From positions 1-64,000 of the forward strand of contig JABMOK010000011.1 in the NCBI GenBank assembly GCA_013204155.1: a stretch of 64,000 bases of DNA, given 5' to 3'. The number at the start of each line of letters is the position of its first letter. The stretch's first letter is position 1. This stretch comes from Pseudohongiella sp. Its GTDB lineage: Bacteria; Pseudomonadota; Gammaproteobacteria; Pseudomonadales; Pseudohongiellaceae. The notes under the pieces are model-generated. The model worked only from the letters and a program-made list of their open reading frames with translations. It had not been told where the DNA came from and did not search any database. Both the position numbers and the translations under genes were made by a program. Shown in pieces: positions 3,390 through 64,000 of this stretch.

Positions 3390-4529
3390 TTAGAGAAACT
3401 CCTGCAATAGACTGTTTAGCATTAAGAACCCCCTATCTGTCGAAGTTATCCAGCCATCGTCGGCTTGCAGCAGTCCGTTCATGACCAGAGATCCTACCTT
3501 CTTTCTTATCGTGCTAAAAGGCAGGCCGGTTCTACTCTCGAACATCGGTATAGAGAAGCCTTGTTTGGTACGCAGCACATTGAGCAGGAATTCGATCGGC
3601 AGACTCGCCGGGTCAATCCAGTTGATTTCGGCGTCCCTGCTTATACTGCTCCTTAAGTAGTTCTTTGGCTGCACGGGTTTTCTTGTGCGAGACAGCCTAT
3701 TTTGCTCAACATTGGTAAGCTTGCCATGAGCTCCGGCGCCGATTCCCAGATAGTCACCGAATTGCCAGTAATTAAGGTTGTGCCTGGATTGCTTGCCTTT
3801 GAGTGAAAATGCCGAGACTTCGTAGCGGATGTATGAATATTCCTCCAATAGCGCGTTTCCAGCAGTTTCCACATCGGTGATGACAGATTCGCTCGGCAGT
3901 AGTGGGGGGCGGGCATAGAAAATAGTATTCGGCTCGATGGTTAACTGATACCAGGAAATATGTGCGGGCGAAAAATCTATCGCCGTCTTCAGGTCCTCCA
4001 GTGCTTCGATCTGCCTTTGCCCGGGAAGTCCATGCATTAGATCCAAATTCAAATTGTCGAAGCCGGCTTGTCCGGCATAGTCGATGGCTCTCTTTGCTTC
4101 GTTGGCATTGTGTATTCGGCCAAGGTTTCGTAGTTGTGTATCATCAAAACTTTGAATGCCCAGTGAAAGCCGATTGATTCCCGCTGCCCGATAGTCCTTG
4201 AACTTCTGCGCTTCTACGCTGCCGGGATTTGCTTCAAGGGTGATTTCCGCATGCTCCGCAAGAGACGACTTTGATTGTATGTGCCCAAGAATGGTTTCAA
4301 AAGAACCCGCGCTGAACAGGCTGGGCGTACCTCCACCAATAAAAATCGACTCGATTGGCCTGTTTCCGCAGTAGGCATAATCTCGATCGAAGTCCTCGCA
4401 GAGGGCGAAGACATATTCGAGCTCGGGAAGGTCTTTCTGGACTTCGTGTGAATTGAAATCGCAATACGGACATTTCTTCGTACACCAGGGGATGTGGATG
4501 TAGACGCTTAGCGGTGGGAGTTCCAGCAT
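3390..4529 (-). CDS. hemW: Radical SAM protein HemW (CPO-III-like haem chaperone)
   Basis: Radical-SAM protein of 379 residues. The [4Fe-4S] motif is C16-x3-C20-x2-C23 in the WCTKKCPYCDF segment, preceded by IHIPW, and an IGGGTPS SAM-binding block follows. The C-terminal HemN-type domain is present. Family members of this length were long annotated as oxygen-independent coproporphyrinogen oxidase, but characterised HemW proteins insert haem into haemoproteins rather than oxidising coproporphyrinogen. It overlaps the 3' end of rdgB by 22 bases, the order seen in Pseudomonas, and is probably translationally coupled. Confidence 0.93.
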   Translation of the reverse strand: MLELPPLSVYIHIPWCTKKCPYCDFNSHEVQKDLPELEYVFALCEDFDRDYAYCGNRPIESIFIGGGTPSLFSAGSFETILGHIQSKSSLAEHAEITLEANPGSVEAQKFKDYRAAGINRLSLGIQSFDDTQLRNLGRIHNANEAKRAIDYAGQAGFDNLNLDLMHGLPGQRQIEALEDLKTAIDFSPAHISWYQLTIEPNTIFYARPPLLPSESVITDVETAGNALLEEYSYIRYEVSAFSLKGKQSRHNLNYWQFGDYLGIGAGAHGKLTNVEQNRLSRTRKPVQPKNYLRSSISRDAEINWIDPASLPIEFLLNVLRTKQGFSIPMFESRTGLPFSTIRKKVGSLVMNGLLQADDGWITSTDRGFLMLNSLLQEFL

Positions 4530-5110
4530 TGTAGTAGCTGCCTTAAGGCTTGACCTCTATGACTGATGGCGTTTTTAACTTCTGCATCCAGTTCGGCTGA
4601 AGCGCAGTCATGAGTAGGCACATAGAACAAGGGGTCATAGCCAAAGCCATTGCCACCAGATGCAGAAAATAGAATGCGTCCTTCCCAGGTTCCCTGACAG
4701 ATTAATGGCATTGGATCGTTTTCATGGCGCAAGTAGACTATTACACATTGAAATCGAGCCGCGCGCTGCGGTTCGGCTATCGACTCCAGTTCCGCCAACA
4801 GCTTCGCATTATTGTCTCTATCGGCCTGGGAGCCACTGGTTCCAGCATAACGGGCAGAATAAATACCAGGCTCACCGTTGAGAGCATCGACTTCTATGCC
4901 GGAATCATCGGCAATAGCAGGAAGCCCGGTTGCAACGCAGGCATGCCTTGCTTTTATCAGTGCGTTTTCAACGAAGCTAAGGCCAGTTTCGTCCGCGTCA
5001 GAGACGCCATATTCTGACTGAGGAATCAGGTTTATTTCTTTCCCTGACAAGATTGCCTGCAGCTCAACTAACTTGCCCGCATTACCACTGGCTAACACTA
5101 TTTTTTGCAT
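4508..5110 (-). CDS. rdgB: Non-canonical purine NTP pyrophosphatase (dITP/XTP)
   Basis: House-cleaning enzyme that hydrolyses dITP, ITP and XTP to monophosphates and keeps deaminated purines out of DNA and RNA. Starting at the internal ATG (MQKIVLASGN) gives 200 residues, the usual length; the longer open frame upstream adds 20 residues that do not belong to the family. Motifs: SGNAGK near the N-terminus, IADDSGIEVDAL with catalytic Asp, GIYSARYAG, and the C-terminal SHRGQAL. It sits between metW and hemW in the conserved order. Confidence 0.95.
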   Translation of the reverse strand: MQKIVLASGNAGKLVELQAILSGKEINLIPQSEYGVSDADETGLSFVENALIKARHACVATGLPAIADDSGIEVDALNGEPGIYSARYAGTSGSQADRDNNAKLLAELESIAEPQRAARFQCVIVYLRHENDPMPLICQGTWEGRILFSASGGNGFGYDPLFYVPTHDCASAELDAEVKNAISHRGQALRQLLQCWNSHR

Positions 5111-5123
5111 AGAACTGCTCTGC

Positions 5124-5726
5124 CTACTCGGCAGTTTCCTTGGTGATATGGTAGATTGCGATTTCTCCAAGCAGATTCGGCCAAGCCTTCATATACCAGC
5201 TCCCCTGATGTTCAAGGTCCACAACTGTTCTCGTTAGTACCTTGATGTTTTTCTCGCGGCAGAGGGCATCAAAATCCTTTACGGTGCAAAAATGTATATT
5301 AGGAGTGTTATACCAGGCATGAGGCATAAACTTTGATACTGGCATACGCCCTTTACTGGACAGATAGAGCCGGCTTTTCCAATTACCGAAATTGGGAAAA
5401 GTAATAATGCCTTTCTCGCCTATACGAAGCATTTCGTCGATAAGAACGTCAGGTTTACTCAATGCTTGAAGTGTCTGCGTTAATAACACGGTATTGAAAC
5501 TGTTCGATTGAAAATTAGAAAGCCCCCGATCCATGTTCTGCTCGATGACATTGATGCCATTACCGATGCACCGTTGAATATTCTCGGGATCTATCTCCAG
5601 GCCAATTCCGTGAACATTTTTGCTGGTTCTCAAATAGTGCAACAGGCTGCCATCGCCGCAACCGAGATCGAGAACCTTGCTGCCGGGTTCAATCCACTGT
5701 TGAATTATTTCCAGGTCAGGTCGCAT
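5124..5726 (-). CDS. metW: Methionine biosynthesis protein MetW (class I methyltransferase fold)
   Basis: SAM-dependent methyltransferase fold of 200 residues with motif [12 protein letters not shown] near residue 20 and [11 protein letters not shown], typical of MetW. It nearly always lies directly downstream of metX and is reported to be needed for, or to modulate, MetX acyltransferase activity; its own substrate is not settled. I start it at the ATG of MRPDLEII, as in homologues; a TTG nine bases upstream is also in frame. The start overlaps the end of metX by 11 bases, implying translational coupling. Confidence 0.92.
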
Positions 5727-6918
5727 TGACTTCAAGCTCCTTGTGTACCCTGGTCAGATAAGTTGAAAGGGCATCGACATAACGCGGGATTGCTATCAAA
5801 AAGGCATCGTGCCCCTGGTCGGCTTCTATTTCCAGATAGCTTACTTCTCTTCCTGCTTTAAGCAAGTCGGTCACAAGCTCGCGGGAACGTTCTGGTGGAA
5901 AACGCCAGTCTGTACTGAACGACATCAGGAAAAACTTACAGGGGCTGTTTTCGAACGCCTTGGCCAGGTCTCCCTCAAAATCTACGGATGGATCAAAGTA
6001 GTCTAAAGCCTTAGTCATTAGCAGATAAGTATTGGCATCAAAATTTTTGGAAAAGCGTTCGCCTTGATAATGCAGATAGCTCTCGACCTGAAAATCCACA
6101 TCGAAACCAAAACTTAACTTGCCAGTGCTCAAGTCTCTCCCGGAATTTTCGGAAGAATCTCGTTTATAGTCTGAGACAGCCTTGCTAAATTTTGCACGCA
6201 TCGCGCTGTCGGAAAGATAGGTTATATGACCGATCATGCGGGCGAGCATGAGGCCCTGTTTAGGGTAGGTGCCTAGTTCCAGGTAACGACCGGCATGAAA
6301 GTTGGAATCGCTGGTGATTGAGCGCCGGGCTACTTCGTTGAAGGCAATGTTCTGAGCGGATAGCTTCGGCGCAGCAGCGATACAAATAGCATGGTCCAGG
6401 CGCTCGGGATAGCTAATAGCCCAGCGCAAGACCTGCATGCCACCCAGGCTGCCACCGACCACGGCCGCCCATTTTGGAATCTCCAGCCGGTCCATTAGTC
6501 TGGCCTGACTATTCACCCAGTCGCGAACGGTAACCACCGGGAAGTCGGGCCCGTAAAATTTTTCGGTCTCTGGATTGATGGAGGCGGGGCCCGTGCTGCC
6601 GGCGCATCCGCCCAGATTGTTCAGGTTTACAACGAAGAATAGAGTTGTATCTATCGCCTTGCCTGGGCCGATACAGGCATCCCACCAGCCAGGCTTTTTG
6701 TCGTCAGGGCTGTGAAAGCCCGCGGAATGATGATCGCCACTTAGCGCGTGACAGATGAGAATGGCATTGGTCCTTGCGGAATTGAGCGTGCCATAAGTCT
6801 CTACTACTAAATCGTAGGCAGGCAAGACCTTGCCGCTGCGTAACGTAAGCGGGTCATCGAAGTGGTGTACCTGGGGTGTTACCAGGCCAACAGAGTTTGT
6901 TGGAAATGAGTCTGACAT
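5716..6918 (-). CDS. metX: Homoserine O-acyltransferase MetX
   Basis: Alpha/beta-hydrolase-fold transferase of 400 residues that activates homoserine for methionine synthesis. The nucleophile is S157 in GGSLGGMQ; the late Asp and His of the triad lie in the C-terminal part (TDWRFPPE and QGHDAFL). [12 protein letters not shown] is the MetX substrate loop. Proteobacterial MetX proteins encoded with MetW are often succinyltransferases rather than acetyltransferases, so the acyl donor cannot be fixed from sequence alone. First gene of a tight run metX-metW-rdgB-hemW. Confidence 0.93.
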
Positions 6919-58599: not shown

Positions 58600-58895
58600 T
58601 GTCGTGAGCCGGGATGATCGCGCGACGAATAGTTAGTTTCCTGCTTCTCTCGGTTACAGCACGACTATTAGCGGCGTATTTCCAGCTTTGATAGGTTCCT
58701 GTTCTCAATCGCATTTACTTTCCATTTCGACTAGACTCTGTCGTGCGCCAAAGGCCATCACCAGCGCTAGGAAATAGCCAGCAAGGCGATGGATCATAGC
58801 CCAGGAGGGTTTCCCCATCAGGATATTTTCGGTATCTCAATTATTGCTTGTTACGATTTAAAATACGGGTGAAAACTATTACTAAATTCAAAGCC

Positions 58896-60593
58896 ATGGA
58901 TTCCCTCGATGAATTATTGCTAGCCGCCACTGTCGAGTTGGATTCCGTGCAGGCAGTATTGGATTCAGGCTTTGGATACATAAAACGGAGCTGCCTGCGG
59001 GATAATAAACTGGACGCTGAGTTGTTAGATCAATGGCAACTCGCCAGCTACGATCTTGCTATCAGTGTGGCTGAGATATCAGCTTCGCGAGAATTTAACA
59101 AGTACGCGAGTAAGCTTTCCCCTGGCGAAGTGGCGCAGAAGATTGCGCTTGGTTTCTGTGCCGATACACTGCAATCTGTTCTGCAACGACTTATCGTTCG
59201 ATCGACTGAATTGAACTTCGATCGGAATACGCTGCTGGATTTCTATCAGCGGGCCTCGTTTAAAGAACTGCTCGATAAGTTTTTAAAGGCCGAATTCCTG
59301 GCGGCGGTAGGGAATGAGATTACGGAGTGTGACATCAATCGGCTTCCGTCCACTCTCGATGAAGACAAGGAATTGGTCAGAGAAACCTTCTTTCGGTTTT
59401 CCAACGATGTGGTTATGCCATTGGCGGAAAAAATTCATCGCCAGGATCAGGATGTTCCGGATGCCATAATAAAGCCCGCTGCCGAACTTGGTTGCTTTGG
59501 TACTTGTATCCCCGAGCGTTTCGGTGGGCTGCAGCCAGATGATCATGCCGACAGTCTAAGCATGATAGTGGTAACCGAAGAACTTTCCAGAGGCTCTCTG
59601 GGGGCGGCTGGAAGCCTGATTACCCGACCGGAGATTGCCGCTCGCGCATTGCTCTGCGGTGGCACGGAAGCGCAGCAACAGAGATGGCTGCCAAAATTGG
59701 CGACAGGAGAGATGCTCTGTGCCATATCAATCACCGAGCCGAATACCGGATCCGATGTGGCCGCAGTTTCGCTTAAGGCGACAGAAACACCAGGGGGTTG
59801 GTTGCTGAATGGCAGCAAGACCTGGTGTACCTTTGCCGGGAAATCAGAATTGCTTGTGGTGCTCGCGAGAACCAATCCCGATCAGTCAATCGGCCATAAA
59901 GGCTTAAGCCTGTTTATGCTGGAGAAGCCGGCCTACTCCGGTCACAAATTCAAACATCAACAGCATCCTCAATCTCAAGAACAATCTCAAGAGCAATCTC
60001 AAGAACAAGGCGGCTCTCTCACCGGCAATGCGATCGCCACTATTGGCTATCGAGGCATGCACTCCTACGATTTGTTTTTTGAAGACTACTTCGTTCCTGC
60101 CGAAAATCTTGTCGGTGAAAAAGACGGAGAAGGCAGGGGTTTCTATTACACTATGGCCGGGTTTTCTGGTGGTCGCCTACAGACCGCTGCCCGGGCGACT
60201 GGTGTTATGCAGGCCGCCTTCGAACAAGCGCTGAGTTATTCCAGACAGCGACAGGTTTTTGGTAAAGCCGTCGCCGACTATCAGCTCACGCAAGTAAAGC
60301 TTACGCGTATGTTGGCAACCTTGAGCGCCGCACGACAATTCAGTTATGCAGTTGCAGAACTAATGGATCAGGGTGCTGGTCAGATGGAAGCGAGTCTGGT
60401 TAAACTGTTTAGTTGCCGTTCTGCTGAGTGGATAACTCGGGAGGCACTGCAGATTCATGGCGGGATGGGATACGCGGAGGAATCCGTGGTGAGTCGTCTG
60501 TTTGTCGATGCGCGTGTGCTTTCGATATTCGAAGGAGCCGAAGAAACGCTGGCATTAAAAGTTATAGCGCGAGAATTGATCGCAAAAGCCTAA
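58896..60593 (+). CDS. Acyl-CoA dehydrogenase, methylsuccinyl-CoA dehydrogenase-like
   Basis: About 565 residues, longer than the usual 380 because of a helical N-terminal extension of about 150 residues, a feature of (2S)-methylsuccinyl-CoA dehydrogenase. FAD/substrate blocks: VTEELSRGSLGAAGSL, CGGTEAQQQRWLPKLATGE, SITEPNTGSDVAA, IGYRGMHSYDLFFEDY and QIHGGMGYAEE; catalytic Glu in SIFEGAEETLALKVIAR. GYRGM is Mcd-style rather than the common LGLRG. A 12-bp repeat inserts a (SQEQ)n loop. GTG at 58869 or TTG at 58848 are alternative starts. Likely reaction: methylsuccinyl-CoA to mesaconyl-C1-CoA. Confidence 0.8.
   Translation: MDSLDELLLAATVELDSVQAVLDSGFGYIKRSCLRDNKLDAELLDQWQLASYDLAISVAEISASREFNKYASKLSPGEVAQKIALGFCADTLQSVLQRLIVRSTELNFDRNTLLDFYQRASFKELLDKFLKAEFLAAVGNEITECDINRLPSTLDEDKELVRETFFRFSNDVVMPLAEKIHRQDQDVPDAIIKPAAELGCFGTCIPERFGGLQPDDHADSLSMIVVTEELSRGSLGAAGSLITRPEIAARALLCGGTEAQQQRWLPKLATGEMLCAISITEPNTGSDVAAVSLKATETPGGWLLNGSKTWCTFAGKSELLVVLARTNPDQSIGHKGLSLFMLEKPAYSGHKFKHQQHPQSQEQSQEQSQEQGGSLTGNAIATIGYRGMHSYDLFFEDYFVPAENLVGEKDGEGRGFYYTMAGFSGGRLQTAARATGVMQAAFEQALSYSRQRQVFGKAVADYQLTQVKLTRMLATLSAARQFSYAVAELMDQGAGQMEASLVKLFSCRSAEWITREALQIHGGMGYAEESVVSRLFVDARVLSIFEGAEETLALKVIARELIAKA
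59970..60005. repeat. 12-bp tandem repeat, three copies, inside the acyl-CoA dehydrogenase gene
   Basis: CAATCTCAAGAA/G at 59970-59981, 59982-59993 and 59994-60005. In frame it encodes Gln-Ser-Gln-Glu units, a polar loop between the beta domain and the GYRGM motif that homologues do not need. Confidence 0.9.
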
Positions 60594-60839: not shown

Positions 60840-61697
60840 ATGTCATTCGACGCAAAGAAATTACTAAACCGGGAATTTCCGATCGTTCGTCAAAGCTATA
60901 CCGACAAAGACTGCATGTTGTATGCGCTGGGTGTTGGGATGGGCATCGATCCGTTGGACGAAGAATGTTTGCGCTTCGTTTACGAAGAAGATTTGAAGGT
61001 ATTGCCGAGTCAGGCGGTTATGATGGCGCATCCTGGGTTCTGGGTAAACGAAGGTGACACGGGGCTGGACTGGCTGCAGGTATTGCATGCGGGTCAGGAG
61101 ATCATCATGCACAGACCGATTCCAACTTCTGGCACGGTTGAGGCGACGACCCGGGTAACTGAAGTGGCGGACAAGGGAGAACGGATCGGCGCCTTGGTGG
61201 TTACCGAAAGAGTAGTCCGAGATGTTGAGACCGGCGAAGAACTATGCACCCTGATTACCACAATCCTGGCGCGCGGCGACGGGGGATTTGGCGGCGACCG
61301 CAAACCGACGCCGAAGACCGATGTAATTCCCAATACCGAGCCCGATGAAGTGTGCGACCTGCCCACTCTGCCCCAACAAGCCTTGCTTTACAGATTAAGC
61401 GGCGATTTTAATCCCCTGCATGCCTCGCCAACTGTTGCGCGCAATGCCGGCTTCAAGGCGCCTATCTTGCACGGCTTATGCACCCTCGGGGTGCTTACCC
61501 ATGCTTTGCTAAAGACCTGTTGTGATTACCAGCCAGAAAAATTCAAGCGGATGCGTTTGCGATTTTCGGCGCCGGTGTATCCTGGCGATACTATTCGAAC
61601 CGAGATTTGGCGTAATGGTAAAGAAGTGGCTTTTCGATGCAAGTCATTAGAGCAAGACAAAATGGTGATCAACAACGGTTACTTATTGGTTGAATAA
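60840..61697 (+). CDS. MaoC-type (R)-specific enoyl-CoA hydratase
   Basis: 285 residues in two hot-dog domains, the second catalytic with the hydratase-2 motif: D189, N191 and H194 in SGDFNPLHAS, and APILHGLCTLG. The first domain starts LLNREFPIVRQSYTDKDCMLYALGVG, like the hydratase 2 part of peroxisomal multifunctional enzymes. Alone it would be called a 3-hydroxyacyl-CoA dehydratase. Between an Mcd-like dehydrogenase and a mesaconyl-CoA transferase it may instead hydrate a mesaconyl-CoA; it is not the usual Meh sequence type, so this is inference. Confidence 0.85.
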   Translation: MSFDAKKLLNREFPIVRQSYTDKDCMLYALGVGMGIDPLDEECLRFVYEEDLKVLPSQAVMMAHPGFWVNEGDTGLDWLQVLHAGQEIIMHRPIPTSGTVEATTRVTEVADKGERIGALVVTERVVRDVETGEELCTLITTILARGDGGFGGDRKPTPKTDVIPNTEPDEVCDLPTLPQQALLYRLSGDFNPLHASPTVARNAGFKAPILHGLCTLGVLTHALLKTCCDYQPEKFKRMRLRFSAPVYPGDTIRTEIWRNGKEVAFRCKSLEQDKMVINNGYLLVE

Positions 61698-61816: not shown

Positions 61817-63034
61817 GTGCAACATTTATTAGATGGATTACGTATAGTCGAAGGTAGCGCTTTTATTGCCGCTCCCTCCGGCGGCATGACCCTCGCGCAA
61901 TTAGGCGCCGATGTTATTCGTTTCGATCAGATCGGTGGTGGTATCGACTATCGTCGTTGGCCTGTCACTAGCCAAGGCAAGAGTCTGTATTGGCATAGCC
62001 TGAATAAGGGCAAGCGCTCCATCGCGGTCGATTTTAGAAAACCCGAAGGACAAGAATTGCTTGCTCAACTAATCACCGCGCCTGGCGAAAATGCAGGACT
62101 GTTTGTTACCAATTTTCCTGCCCGTGGCTGGCTTGCCGAAGAAAAGCTAAGGGCGCGACGGGAAGATCTGATCTATTTGAATTTGACCGGCGATCGTCAT
62201 GGCGGTAGTGCGCTGGATTACACAGTTAACAGTAAAGTAGGTTTGCCATTTTTAATCGGGACGGCCGATGCGCCGGTTAACAATCCATTTCCTGCCTGGG
62301 ATGTAATAGCCGGGCAACATATCGCCTTGGGTCTATTGGCCGCCGAACGACATCGGCGTATCAGTGGCGAAGGACAATTTATCAAGCTAAGTTTGGCAGA
62401 TGTAGCCCTGGCAACAATGGGCCACTTAGGTTATCTCGCTGAAGCTGAAGTCAACGGACAGGGGCGGCAGCCAATGGGTAATCATATTTTTGGTACCTTC
62501 GGTCATGACTTCCTGTGCAAGGACGGTGAGCGGGTGATGATTGTCGGTGTCAGTCCTAATCAGTGGCGGGCAATTCTGAAGCTTACCGGGGCCGAGCAAC
62601 AAGTTTCGCAATTGCAGCAGAGCCTGAATCTGGATTTTACCCGGGAAGGTGATCGCTTTGAGGCGAGGGAACAGCTCAGACAATTATTCGCGCCCTGGTT
62701 TCTGCAATTTGATTCGAGCACTGTATACAAAGCTCTGGATGAGGCCGGTGTCTGCTGGGGGCCTTATCAAACAATTCAGCAACTACTAGAGAATGATATC
62801 GACTGTTCCGAAGACAATCCTTTGTTTAGCAAGGTGCATCAGCCGGGTATTGGCAGCTACTTGATGCCGGCCAGCCCGCTTGATTTTACCGGGGTAGAAC
62901 GGGAAGCGGTAAGGCCGGCGCCATTACTCGGACAACACACCGATGAAATTTTGGCGGACAGCCTGGGTTTGAGCAGCGCAGAAATTGCGCAGCTGCATGA
63001 CCAGGGCGTGGTCGCCGGTCCTGCTGATAACTAG
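61817..63034 (+). CDS. mct: 2-methylfumaryl-CoA isomerase (mesaconyl-CoA C1-C4 CoA transferase)
   Basis: 405-residue family III (CaiB/BaiF) CoA-transferase, GTG start with GGAG upstream. It matches, as far as I can recall, the bicycle enzyme Mct almost end to end: LRIVEGSAFIAAPSGGMTLAQLGADVIRFD, GGGIDYRRWPV, LNKGKRSIAVD, GLFVTNFPARGWL, the catalytic Asp D162 in PAWD, LLAAERHRR, GQPGIGSYLMP-like and the C-terminal GQHTDEIL and DQGVVAGP. Mct moves CoA within mesaconyl-CoA from C1 to C4. Other family III enzymes share only the fold and the Asp; the long identity blocks make Mct the best call. Confidence 0.85.
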   Translation: MQHLLDGLRIVEGSAFIAAPSGGMTLAQLGADVIRFDQIGGGIDYRRWPVTSQGKSLYWHSLNKGKRSIAVDFRKPEGQELLAQLITAPGENAGLFVTNFPARGWLAEEKLRARREDLIYLNLTGDRHGGSALDYTVNSKVGLPFLIGTADAPVNNPFPAWDVIAGQHIALGLLAAERHRRISGEGQFIKLSLADVALATMGHLGYLAEAEVNGQGRQPMGNHIFGTFGHDFLCKDGERVMIVGVSPNQWRAILKLTGAEQQVSQLQQSLNLDFTREGDRFEAREQLRQLFAPWFLQFDSSTVYKALDEAGVCWGPYQTIQQLLENDIDCSEDNPLFSKVHQPGIGSYLMPASPLDFTGVEREAVRPAPLLGQHTDEILADSLGLSSAEIAQLHDQGVVAGPADN

Positions 63035-63189: not shown

Positions 63190-63852
63190 TTAGACCCAAC
63201 CGCCCGCCAGGGGAATAAGTTGCCCTATCATATGTTGGCAGTGCTCGCTGGCCAGATAGGCCGCCAGTTCCGCTGTCTCACTTGCTGCGCCGACTTTGTT
63301 AGTGGGTACATTCCTCTTGATGTGCTGCAGAAATTTCTCATTCTGTAAAATATCATCGGGATAGTAAGTGTTATTGTTAATGTAGTTTTGTGCGATGGCA
63401 TTCACTTGAATATTACTGCGGGCTAATTCCAGGCCAACGGCTTTGATAAAGCCGTTCTGTGCTCCGCGTGCGGCACAATAGGCAGCGTTGTTAGCAATGC
63501 CTTTGAGCGGCGCCGCGCTGGTCACCGCGATAATTTTTCCTGACTTTCGCTCCAGCATTTGTGGTGTAACCGCACGCACTAGATACATCAGTGGATGTAC
63601 CAGTGAATCAAATAATTTATTCCAATCCCTGTTCTCAATGTTTTGTACCGGGCCGGTCATGGGGGGTTCGGCCAGGTTCGCCACCAGGATATCTATTGCC
63701 CCGGCGTTGCTTACCAGTTCGTTCACCTCTGCTTCGCTGGTCATGGGCGAGGCGCCAGTGATGACATCGATATTCAAACTCTCGAATTTTTGTTTGATTG
63801 CTTCGCCCATATATTTATCGACGCAAGTTATCAGCGCGGTTCTATTCGTCAT
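63190..63852 (-). CDS. Halohydrin dehalogenase-like protein (SDR fold)
   Basis: 220 residues from the ATG of MTNRTALITC, with AAGGA upstream. The Rossmann glycine motif of true dehydrogenases is replaced by T9-x4-Y14-x-G16, the halide-site motif, and the catalytic triad is S112-x12-Y125-x3-R129, with Arg instead of the dehydrogenase Lys. The VNAIAQNYINNNTYY segment replaces the usual N-P-G. These are the defining marks of halohydrin dehalogenases, and the sequence recalls HheB/HheD/HheE types. Such enzymes turn vicinal haloalcohols into epoxides and open epoxides with anions. The start overlaps the DsbA-like gene by 11 bases. Confidence 0.82.
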   Translation of the reverse strand: MTNRTALITCVDKYMGEAIKQKFESLNIDVITGASPMTSEAEVNELVSNAGAIDILVANLAEPPMTGPVQNIENRDWNKLFDSLVHPLMYLVRAVTPQMLERKSGKIIAVTSAAPLKGIANNAAYCAARGAQNGFIKAVGLELARSNIQVNAIAQNYINNNTYYPDDILQNEKFLQHIKRNVPTNKVGAASETAELAAYLASEHCQHMIGQLIPLAGGWV

Positions 63853-64000
63853 GGCTATTTGAATCCTTGTTACCGGACGTATCCTGCTCGAGTAAATGCT
63901 GGACAAATTTTTCCAGCGTTTCATAGGGCTGGCAGCCAACAACTACCAACTCGTTTGCATAAAAAGTTGGCACGCCAGAAACTCCGTATTCCCGGGATCG
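63842..64000 (-). CDS. DsbA-family oxidoreductase (FrnE-like), C-terminal end only
   Basis: The last 52 codons of a gene entering from the right edge. RSREYGVSGVPTFYANELVVVGCQPYETLEKFV carries the cis-proline (GVP) and the closing helix of DsbA/FrnE or 2-hydroxychromene-carboxylate-isomerase-like proteins. The catalytic motif lies outside, so redox activity cannot be judged. It reads into the dehalogenase-like gene with an 11-base overlap and is cotranscribed with it. Confidence 0.75.
   Translation of the reverse strand, partial: RSREYGVSGVPTFYANELVVVGCQPYETLEKFVQHLLEQDTSGNKDSNSHDE

Follow-up and report, generated by a model that had tools for sequence, protein, structure and literature searches.

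Does the minus-strand gene at 63190-63852 of this Pseudohongiella contig encode a halohydrin dehalogenase (HHDH), and what do its neighbors say about the use of such an enzyme in nature? HHDHs are valued biocatalysts, and their natural role is unsettled. We analyzed the 64,000-nucleotide stretch containing the gene (hereafter, the window) together with relatives of the gene in the genus and beyond. The product is very probably a genuine HHDH, predicted from its sequence and modeled fold to convert halogenated alcohols to epoxides. An initial annotation, made from the window alone, had already proposed a probable HHDH, and the best matches in both sequence and structure (HheD8, HheD2, and HheB) bear this out. 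The most interesting point lies next to the gene: it is coupled to a selenoprotein gene, a concrete lead to the natural role.

Motifs, phylogeny, and predicted fold

The open reading frame runs on the minus strand from an ATG at 63852 to a TAG at 63190-63192 and encodes 220 amino acids. The features on which its assignment turns are as follows:

63190..63852, minus strand: gene for the HHDH-like protein, 220 aa (translation, PDB search, tree, predicted fold)
63805..63828, minus strand: motif 1, T9-CVDK-Y14-M-G16, at the nucleophile/halide pocket (dehydrogenase counterpart TGxxx[AG]xG)
63466..63519, minus strand: motif 2, S112-x12-Y125-x3-R129, the Ser-Tyr-Arg catalytic triad, invariant in 40 aligned relatives
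63358..63390, minus strand: loop QNYINNNTYYP, residues 155-165, at the position of the nicotinamide site

The motif pair T-x4-F/Y-x-G and S-x12-Y-x3-R is the published means of splitting HHDHs from dehydrogenases (PMC4989007, PMC11976700). Translation finds both in the protein, exactly as the initial annotation had claimed, and its reading of the loop was also correct (residues 155-167 read QNYINNNTYYPDD). Neither of the patterns of classical short-chain dehydrogenases/reductases (SDRs), TG/A-x3-G/A-x-G and S-x10-14-Y-x3-K, is found, and the glycine-rich NAD(P) motif is absent; features for binding NAD(P) thus appear to have been lost, as in known HHDHs. Among 28 ordinary SDR sequences (8 from the window genome and the rest from the neighborhoods of relatives), none has either HHDH motif and 24 show dehydrogenase motifs instead, so the match is not due to chance.

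Both motifs are retained in nearly all of ~100 relatives, at identities down to 38%. An exact match to motif 1 is absent from a few, among them L024, where Ser replaces Thr9. Forty aligned members show no variation at the catalytic Ser, Tyr, and Arg, the Met-Gly of motif 1, or Asn156, Asn160, Tyr163, and Pro165 of the loop, and hardly any at Thr9. Against the nearest copy (90% identical), pairwise dN/dS is 0.026, with dS saturated. The active-site columns agree with those of HheB and HheD in the alignment. The stretch at residues 25-55 is 30 residues long in the window clade, HheB, and HheD, 52-67 in HheA, HheC, and HheG, and 57-59 in dehydrogenases. The part of the SDR fold that would bind adenosine is therefore shortened in the window clade, by 27-29 residues relative to dehydrogenases.

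A sequence search of the PDB returned 8xxb (HheD8, 178 bits), 7b73 (HheD2, 171 bits), and HheB (145 bits), followed by 6a41 and HheC; the best SDR that is not an HHDH was 2hq1, at 85.5 bits. We built a maximum-likelihood tree of 79 sequences that included HheA2, HheB, HheC, HheD2, HheD8, 6a41, and HheG (HheE and HheF lie outside this set), with eight SDRs, all from the window genome, as outgroup. The HheC, HheA2, and HheG reference sequences were confirmed or corrected against PDB alignments. A 99/96 branch parts all the HHDH references and the window clade from the eight SDRs, and the clustering inside ordinary SDRs that would have spoken against the initial annotation is not seen. The window clade comprises 46 sequences (94/76) and is sister to a clade of HheB and HheD (99/95), with the union of the two at 97/96. 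With a limited outgroup and long branches leading to HheG, HheA2, and HheC, the deep branching order is unsure; the position of the window clade beside HheB and HheD is independent of those three. One relative, L156, lies at zero distance from HheD2, and the D-clade label is therefore correct.

An AlphaFold model of the protein, built with a 40-sequence input, has a mean pLDDT of 92.8. Foldseek ranks HheD8, HheD2, and HheB first with this model, and the VIA-align Z scores are 33.9 for HheD8, 33.8 for HheB, 32.6 for HheD2, 31.0 for 6a41, and 30.1-29.1 for HheC, with ordinary SDRs at 29.4 or below. The top chains for the predicted fold are all HHDHs. The ranking alone is modest evidence, because HHDHs and SDRs all have the SDR fold, and taken with the motifs and the tree it is consistent.

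We consider it highly likely that the gene encodes a cofactor-independent HHDH of the B/D-type branch. An ordinary SDR dehydrogenase that converged on the HHDH motifs is extremely improbable: the matches to SDR Pfam models above cut-off (PF13561, 108 bits; PF00106, 90 bits) do not discriminate, because HHDHs share the SDR fold, and such an enzyme is contradicted by the missing TGxxx[AG]xG, Arg rather than Lys at 129, the short adenosine region, the separation of HHDHs from the genome's own SDRs in the tree, the lead of HHDHs in the structure ranks, and the finding that no dehydrogenase model is above cut-off among the 25 best NCBIfam matches.

Subtype and distribution of the clade

The initial annotation called the enzyme new and rare. 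The first holds in that its clade is uncharacterized, although the family was already known. The protein is 38% identical to HheD2, 41% to HheD8, and 38% to HheB, while HheB and HheD2 share 46% and HheD2 and HheD8 62%; by these pairwise identities, the distance that sets the window clade apart matches or exceeds that between the B and D subtypes. HheD can be rejected as its subtype on these values and on the separate clade in the tree, and HheB on the 38% identity and a position outside the HheB group. For comparison, HheD19-38 are 57-95% identical to HheD members (PMC4989007).

The clade has no characterized member among the references compared, a set to which HheE and HheF do not belong. Since these two known subtypes lie outside the identity comparison, we do not claim a new HHDH subtype. 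The clade could be HheE, a subtype from marine gammaproteobacteria.

HheD2 (7b73) and HheD8 (8xxb) share with the window protein the motifs, a length of 220-230 aa, the short adenosine region, the predicted fold (Z 32.6 and 33.9), and a halide loop of the form QN-[FY]-x-x-N-x-T-Y-[FY]-P. The counterparts of the window loop are QNFVDNPTYFP in HheD2 and PNFFNNPTYFP in HheA2. The HheD type differs in its 38-41% identity, its separate clade, and the residues near the catalytic Tyr, which read SAAPLKGIANNAAYCAAR in the window protein versus SASALRGMKRASTYSAAR in HheD. HheB (4zd6, 5b12) is alike in the motifs, including the motif-1 Tyr, the short adenosine region, and the predicted fold (Z 33.8), but its identity is 38%, its loop is QHWTQNKEYFW, and the tree places it with other sequences. 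HheA2, HheC, and HheG have both motifs and an SDR-derived fold without cofactor, but they are only 24-30% identical and carry 22-37 extra residues in the 25-55 stretch; the loop of HheC also differs in length.

The claim of rarity does not stand. Of the 61 genus genomes, 39 (the window genome included) have an ortholog, the other copies being ~68-87% identical, and two genomes of the same order in this search have copies that are 55-57% identical. A scan of named genomes found at least 505 confirmed relatives. The best 80 of these come mostly from marine gammaproteobacterial metagenome-assembled genomes (MAGs), namely OM182, Pseudohongiella, SAR92/Porticoccaceae, Halieaceae, and Exilibacterium, and some come from Chloroflexota, Myxococcota, and Hydrogenedentota MAGs, where binning makes single odd placements unreliable. 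The clade is a large, common, uncharacterized marine HHDH branch, and it offers many wild sequences that are 38-41% identical to the nearest solved enzymes. Plasmid carriage was considered and set aside, as the matches include a single plasmid record, from Novosphingobium, at 35% identity.

Catalysis and natural role

For the window enzyme, we infer catalysis, substrate, and physiological role by analogy with characterized HHDHs and on a predicted fold. Tyr125, its pKa lowered by Arg129 and the substrate positioned by Ser112, would deprotonate the hydroxyl of a vicinal haloalcohol, and the resulting alkoxide would displace the halide to yield an epoxide. The halide pocket would be lined by the motif-1 loop (Thr9, Tyr14, and Gly16) and the 155-165 loop. 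In the reverse direction, small anions would serve the enzyme to open epoxides. Its probable task in the cell is to detoxify or degrade naturally produced marine haloalcohols.

Two near-identical genomes of the SAR92 clade bear on this role. In these (loci L107 and L108, with an HHDH 68% identical to ours), genes for a haloalkane dehalogenase (NF002043, 374 bits against a cut-off of 265), an SDR, and the HHDH lie on the same strand at bases 4018-6663, followed by a gene that, by eye, resembles one for a TonB-dependent receptor. The three form an apparent operon and a candidate natural pathway for dihaloalkanes. For vicinal dihalides, chemistry would lead one to expect a haloalkane dehalogenase first and an HHDH second, and pathways of this kind degrade vicinal dihaloalkanes in the engineered 1,2,3-trichloropropane route and in Mycobacterium sp. 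GP1. The SAR92 arrangement, with the HHDH gene immediately after those for the haloalkane dehalogenase and the SDR, resembles these pathways and supports a role in dehalogenation. Unlike them, neither the window genome nor the genus neighborhood shows the combination: a close haloalkane dehalogenase lies beside the HHDH only in L107 and L108 among the loci searched, and in the window genome the best match to NF002043 scores 122 bits, short of the 265-bit cut-off.

It is possible, if doubtful, that this enzyme with HHDH fold and triad has another physiological reaction, either the opening of epoxides by small anions or a different proton transfer or elimination, and that its halohydrin activity is promiscuous. 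This overlaps with the HHDH explanation, which concerns the nature of the enzyme more than its natural substrate. Presence in 39 of 61 genus genomes and in Chloroflexota, Myxococcota, and Hydrogenedentota MAGs suggests a general task, the window genome has no clear halohydrin-producing partner, and HHDHs accept azide, cyanide, and nitrite (PMC4989007). On the other hand, the active-site columns are of the HheB/HheD type, and a haloalkane dehalogenase precedes the SAR92 ortholog, both of which argue for the HHDH acting as a dehalogenase.

The selenoprotein gene and the CoA genes

The HHDH gene has neighbors on both sides:

63842..64000, minus strand: 3' part of a DsbA/FrnE-like selenoprotein gene, 213 aa (contig C72, 63842-64483)
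63842..63852, minus strand: 11-base overlap of the selenoprotein gene end (stop at 63842-63844) with the HHDH start, seen in the sequence
61817..63034, plus strand: family III CoA-transferase, a convergent conserved neighbor outside the HHDH unit (nearest to 2-methylfumaryl (mesaconyl)-CoA isomerase, below cut-off)
60840..61697, plus strand: MaoC-type hydratase of the neighboring CoA cluster
58848..60593, plus strand: acyl-CoA dehydrogenase of the same cluster

The coupling to a DsbA-like gene that the initial annotation had described is confirmed by the 11-base overlap, which makes translational coupling of the two genes probable. The partner is indeed DsbA-like (PF01323, 117 bits); its selenoprotein nature had been missed, the decisive TGA lying ~440 bases beyond the window end. 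The gene starts at contig base 64483, and codon 14 (64442-64444) is an in-frame TGA in the context MNKLVLDVFTDYI-U-PWCYLS. In the nearest PDB entry, FrnE (82 bits), CPWC is the aligned counterpart of UPWC, so that the TGA falls at the redox Cys. Matches across the genus show a read-through TGA too, and all 45 orthologous neighbors have TGA at this position, with no other stop and no Cys codon there. Ordinary gene calling would truncate the gene at 63842-64483 (minus strand).

Of the 42 distinct sequences, essentially all have AGT ACC GTG AGT ATT at codons 6-10 after the TGA (Ser-Thr-Val-Ser-Ile), whereas the codons on either side, those for Pro, Tyr, Leu, and Lys among them, show unrestricted synonymous variation. 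A 7-bp hairpin begins at base 17 counting from the T of TGA, a distance that we take to fit a bacterial SECIS. Covariation in this hairpin gave no compensatory changes, as the stem hardly varies, and the alifold energy was no better than that of codon-column shuffles; because a near-invariant stem makes covariation uninformative, the case for a SECIS rests on the frozen synonymous sites. The selenocysteine (Sec) machinery searched for is present in the window genome, with SelB at 374 bits (cut-off 242), SelD at 288 (125), and tRNA-Sec at 67 (47). These genomic signatures identify the partner as a selenoprotein. A predicted family of DsbA-like UxxC selenoproteins has been listed (PMC13188914); its form 1, given there as a computational prediction, shares PF01323 and, in UPWC, the UxxC with the HHDH neighbor. 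Our literature search found no paper that mentions a halohydrin dehalogenase together with a selenoprotein.

The two genes overlap or lie at most 21 bases apart in 21 of 45 loci; elsewhere the spacing is larger, reaching ~4 kb in six loci where another gene lies in between. Both genes occur in 37 of the 61 genus genomes, the HHDH alone in 2, and the Sec-DsbA gene alone in 11 (G055 among them), while 11 genomes lack both (Fisher p 8e-5, with no correction for phylogeny or genome incompleteness). The usual order is a divergent TPR-like gene (by eye), Sec-DsbA, and HHDH. Beyond the HHDH, on the opposite strand, come an acyl-CoA synthetase (often), the CoA-transferase, the MaoC hydratase, an SDR (often), the acyl-CoA dehydrogenase, a thiolase, and an HMG-CoA synthase-like gene, the names of the synthetase, thiolase, and HMG-CoA synthase-like genes being assigned by eye.

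The initial annotation had the HHDH face a mesaconyl-CoA module. CoA-transferase, MaoC, and acyl-CoA dehydrogenase genes do converge on it, and mesaconyl-CoA isomerase is the best model for the CoA-transferase, but at 568 bits against a cut-off of 725, and the specificity is possibly different. Nor is the module more than a neighbor, since it persists in eight relatives without a full HHDH gene. These are the eight inspected of the 11 genomes that have Sec-DsbA alone, and Sec-DsbA adjoins the CoA genes in all eight. At this site, the HHDH is undetectable in seven (G003 keeps a ~0.6-kb gap), and G055 retains a remnant, the last third of the gene (residues 151-216; L246, G055:C124:5463-13062, bases 3808-4005), between intact Sec-DsbA and CoA-transferase genes. 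Since both neighbors persist without the HHDH, neither depends on it, and it counts as an accessory gene with a fixed location. Within the genus, it would have been gained or lost at this one site between the translationally coupled Sec-DsbA-like gene and the CoA-ester catabolic cluster.

The sites without HHDH disfavor its membership in a mesaconyl-CoA pathway. A single pathway of HHDH, selenoprotein, and CoA cluster is also improbable, even if the order selenoprotein-HHDH-(acyl-CoA synthetase)-CoA-transferase-MaoC-SDR-acyl-CoA dehydrogenase-thiolase is conserved through the genus and the selenoprotein is present in 37 of the 39 HHDH genomes (the Fisher test above, uncorrected for phylogeny): 11 genomes have the selenoprotein without a full HHDH, with the CoA genes adjacent in the eight inspected, the HHDH lies beside unrelated genes in other lineages, and the HHDH and the CoA cluster occupy opposite strands.

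As a speculative and unlikely extension of the HHDH assignment, the Sec DsbA/FrnE-like protein and an HHDH of a subtype not yet lettered may form a functional pair with a shared marine substrate, either an organohalogen or an epoxide; the Sec protein might, for instance, reduce or dehalogenate a product or substrate of the HHDH. We know of no earlier natural selenoenzyme-HHDH system, and such a pair, if true, would be the first. The selenoprotein coupling, the presence or absence of the HHDH at one site among close relatives, and the apparent SAR92 haloalkane-dehalogenase operon are three genomic handles, each of which makes the question of natural role testable.

Among the loci listed, no partner gene recurs by eye near the HHDHs of the D type and of distant clades. 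In four marine MAGs labeled Burkholderiales or Betaproteobacteria (loci L100, L102, L104, and L111), the HHDH adjoins genes that by eye resemble those for a photolyase/cryptochrome and an FAD-dependent oxidoreductase.
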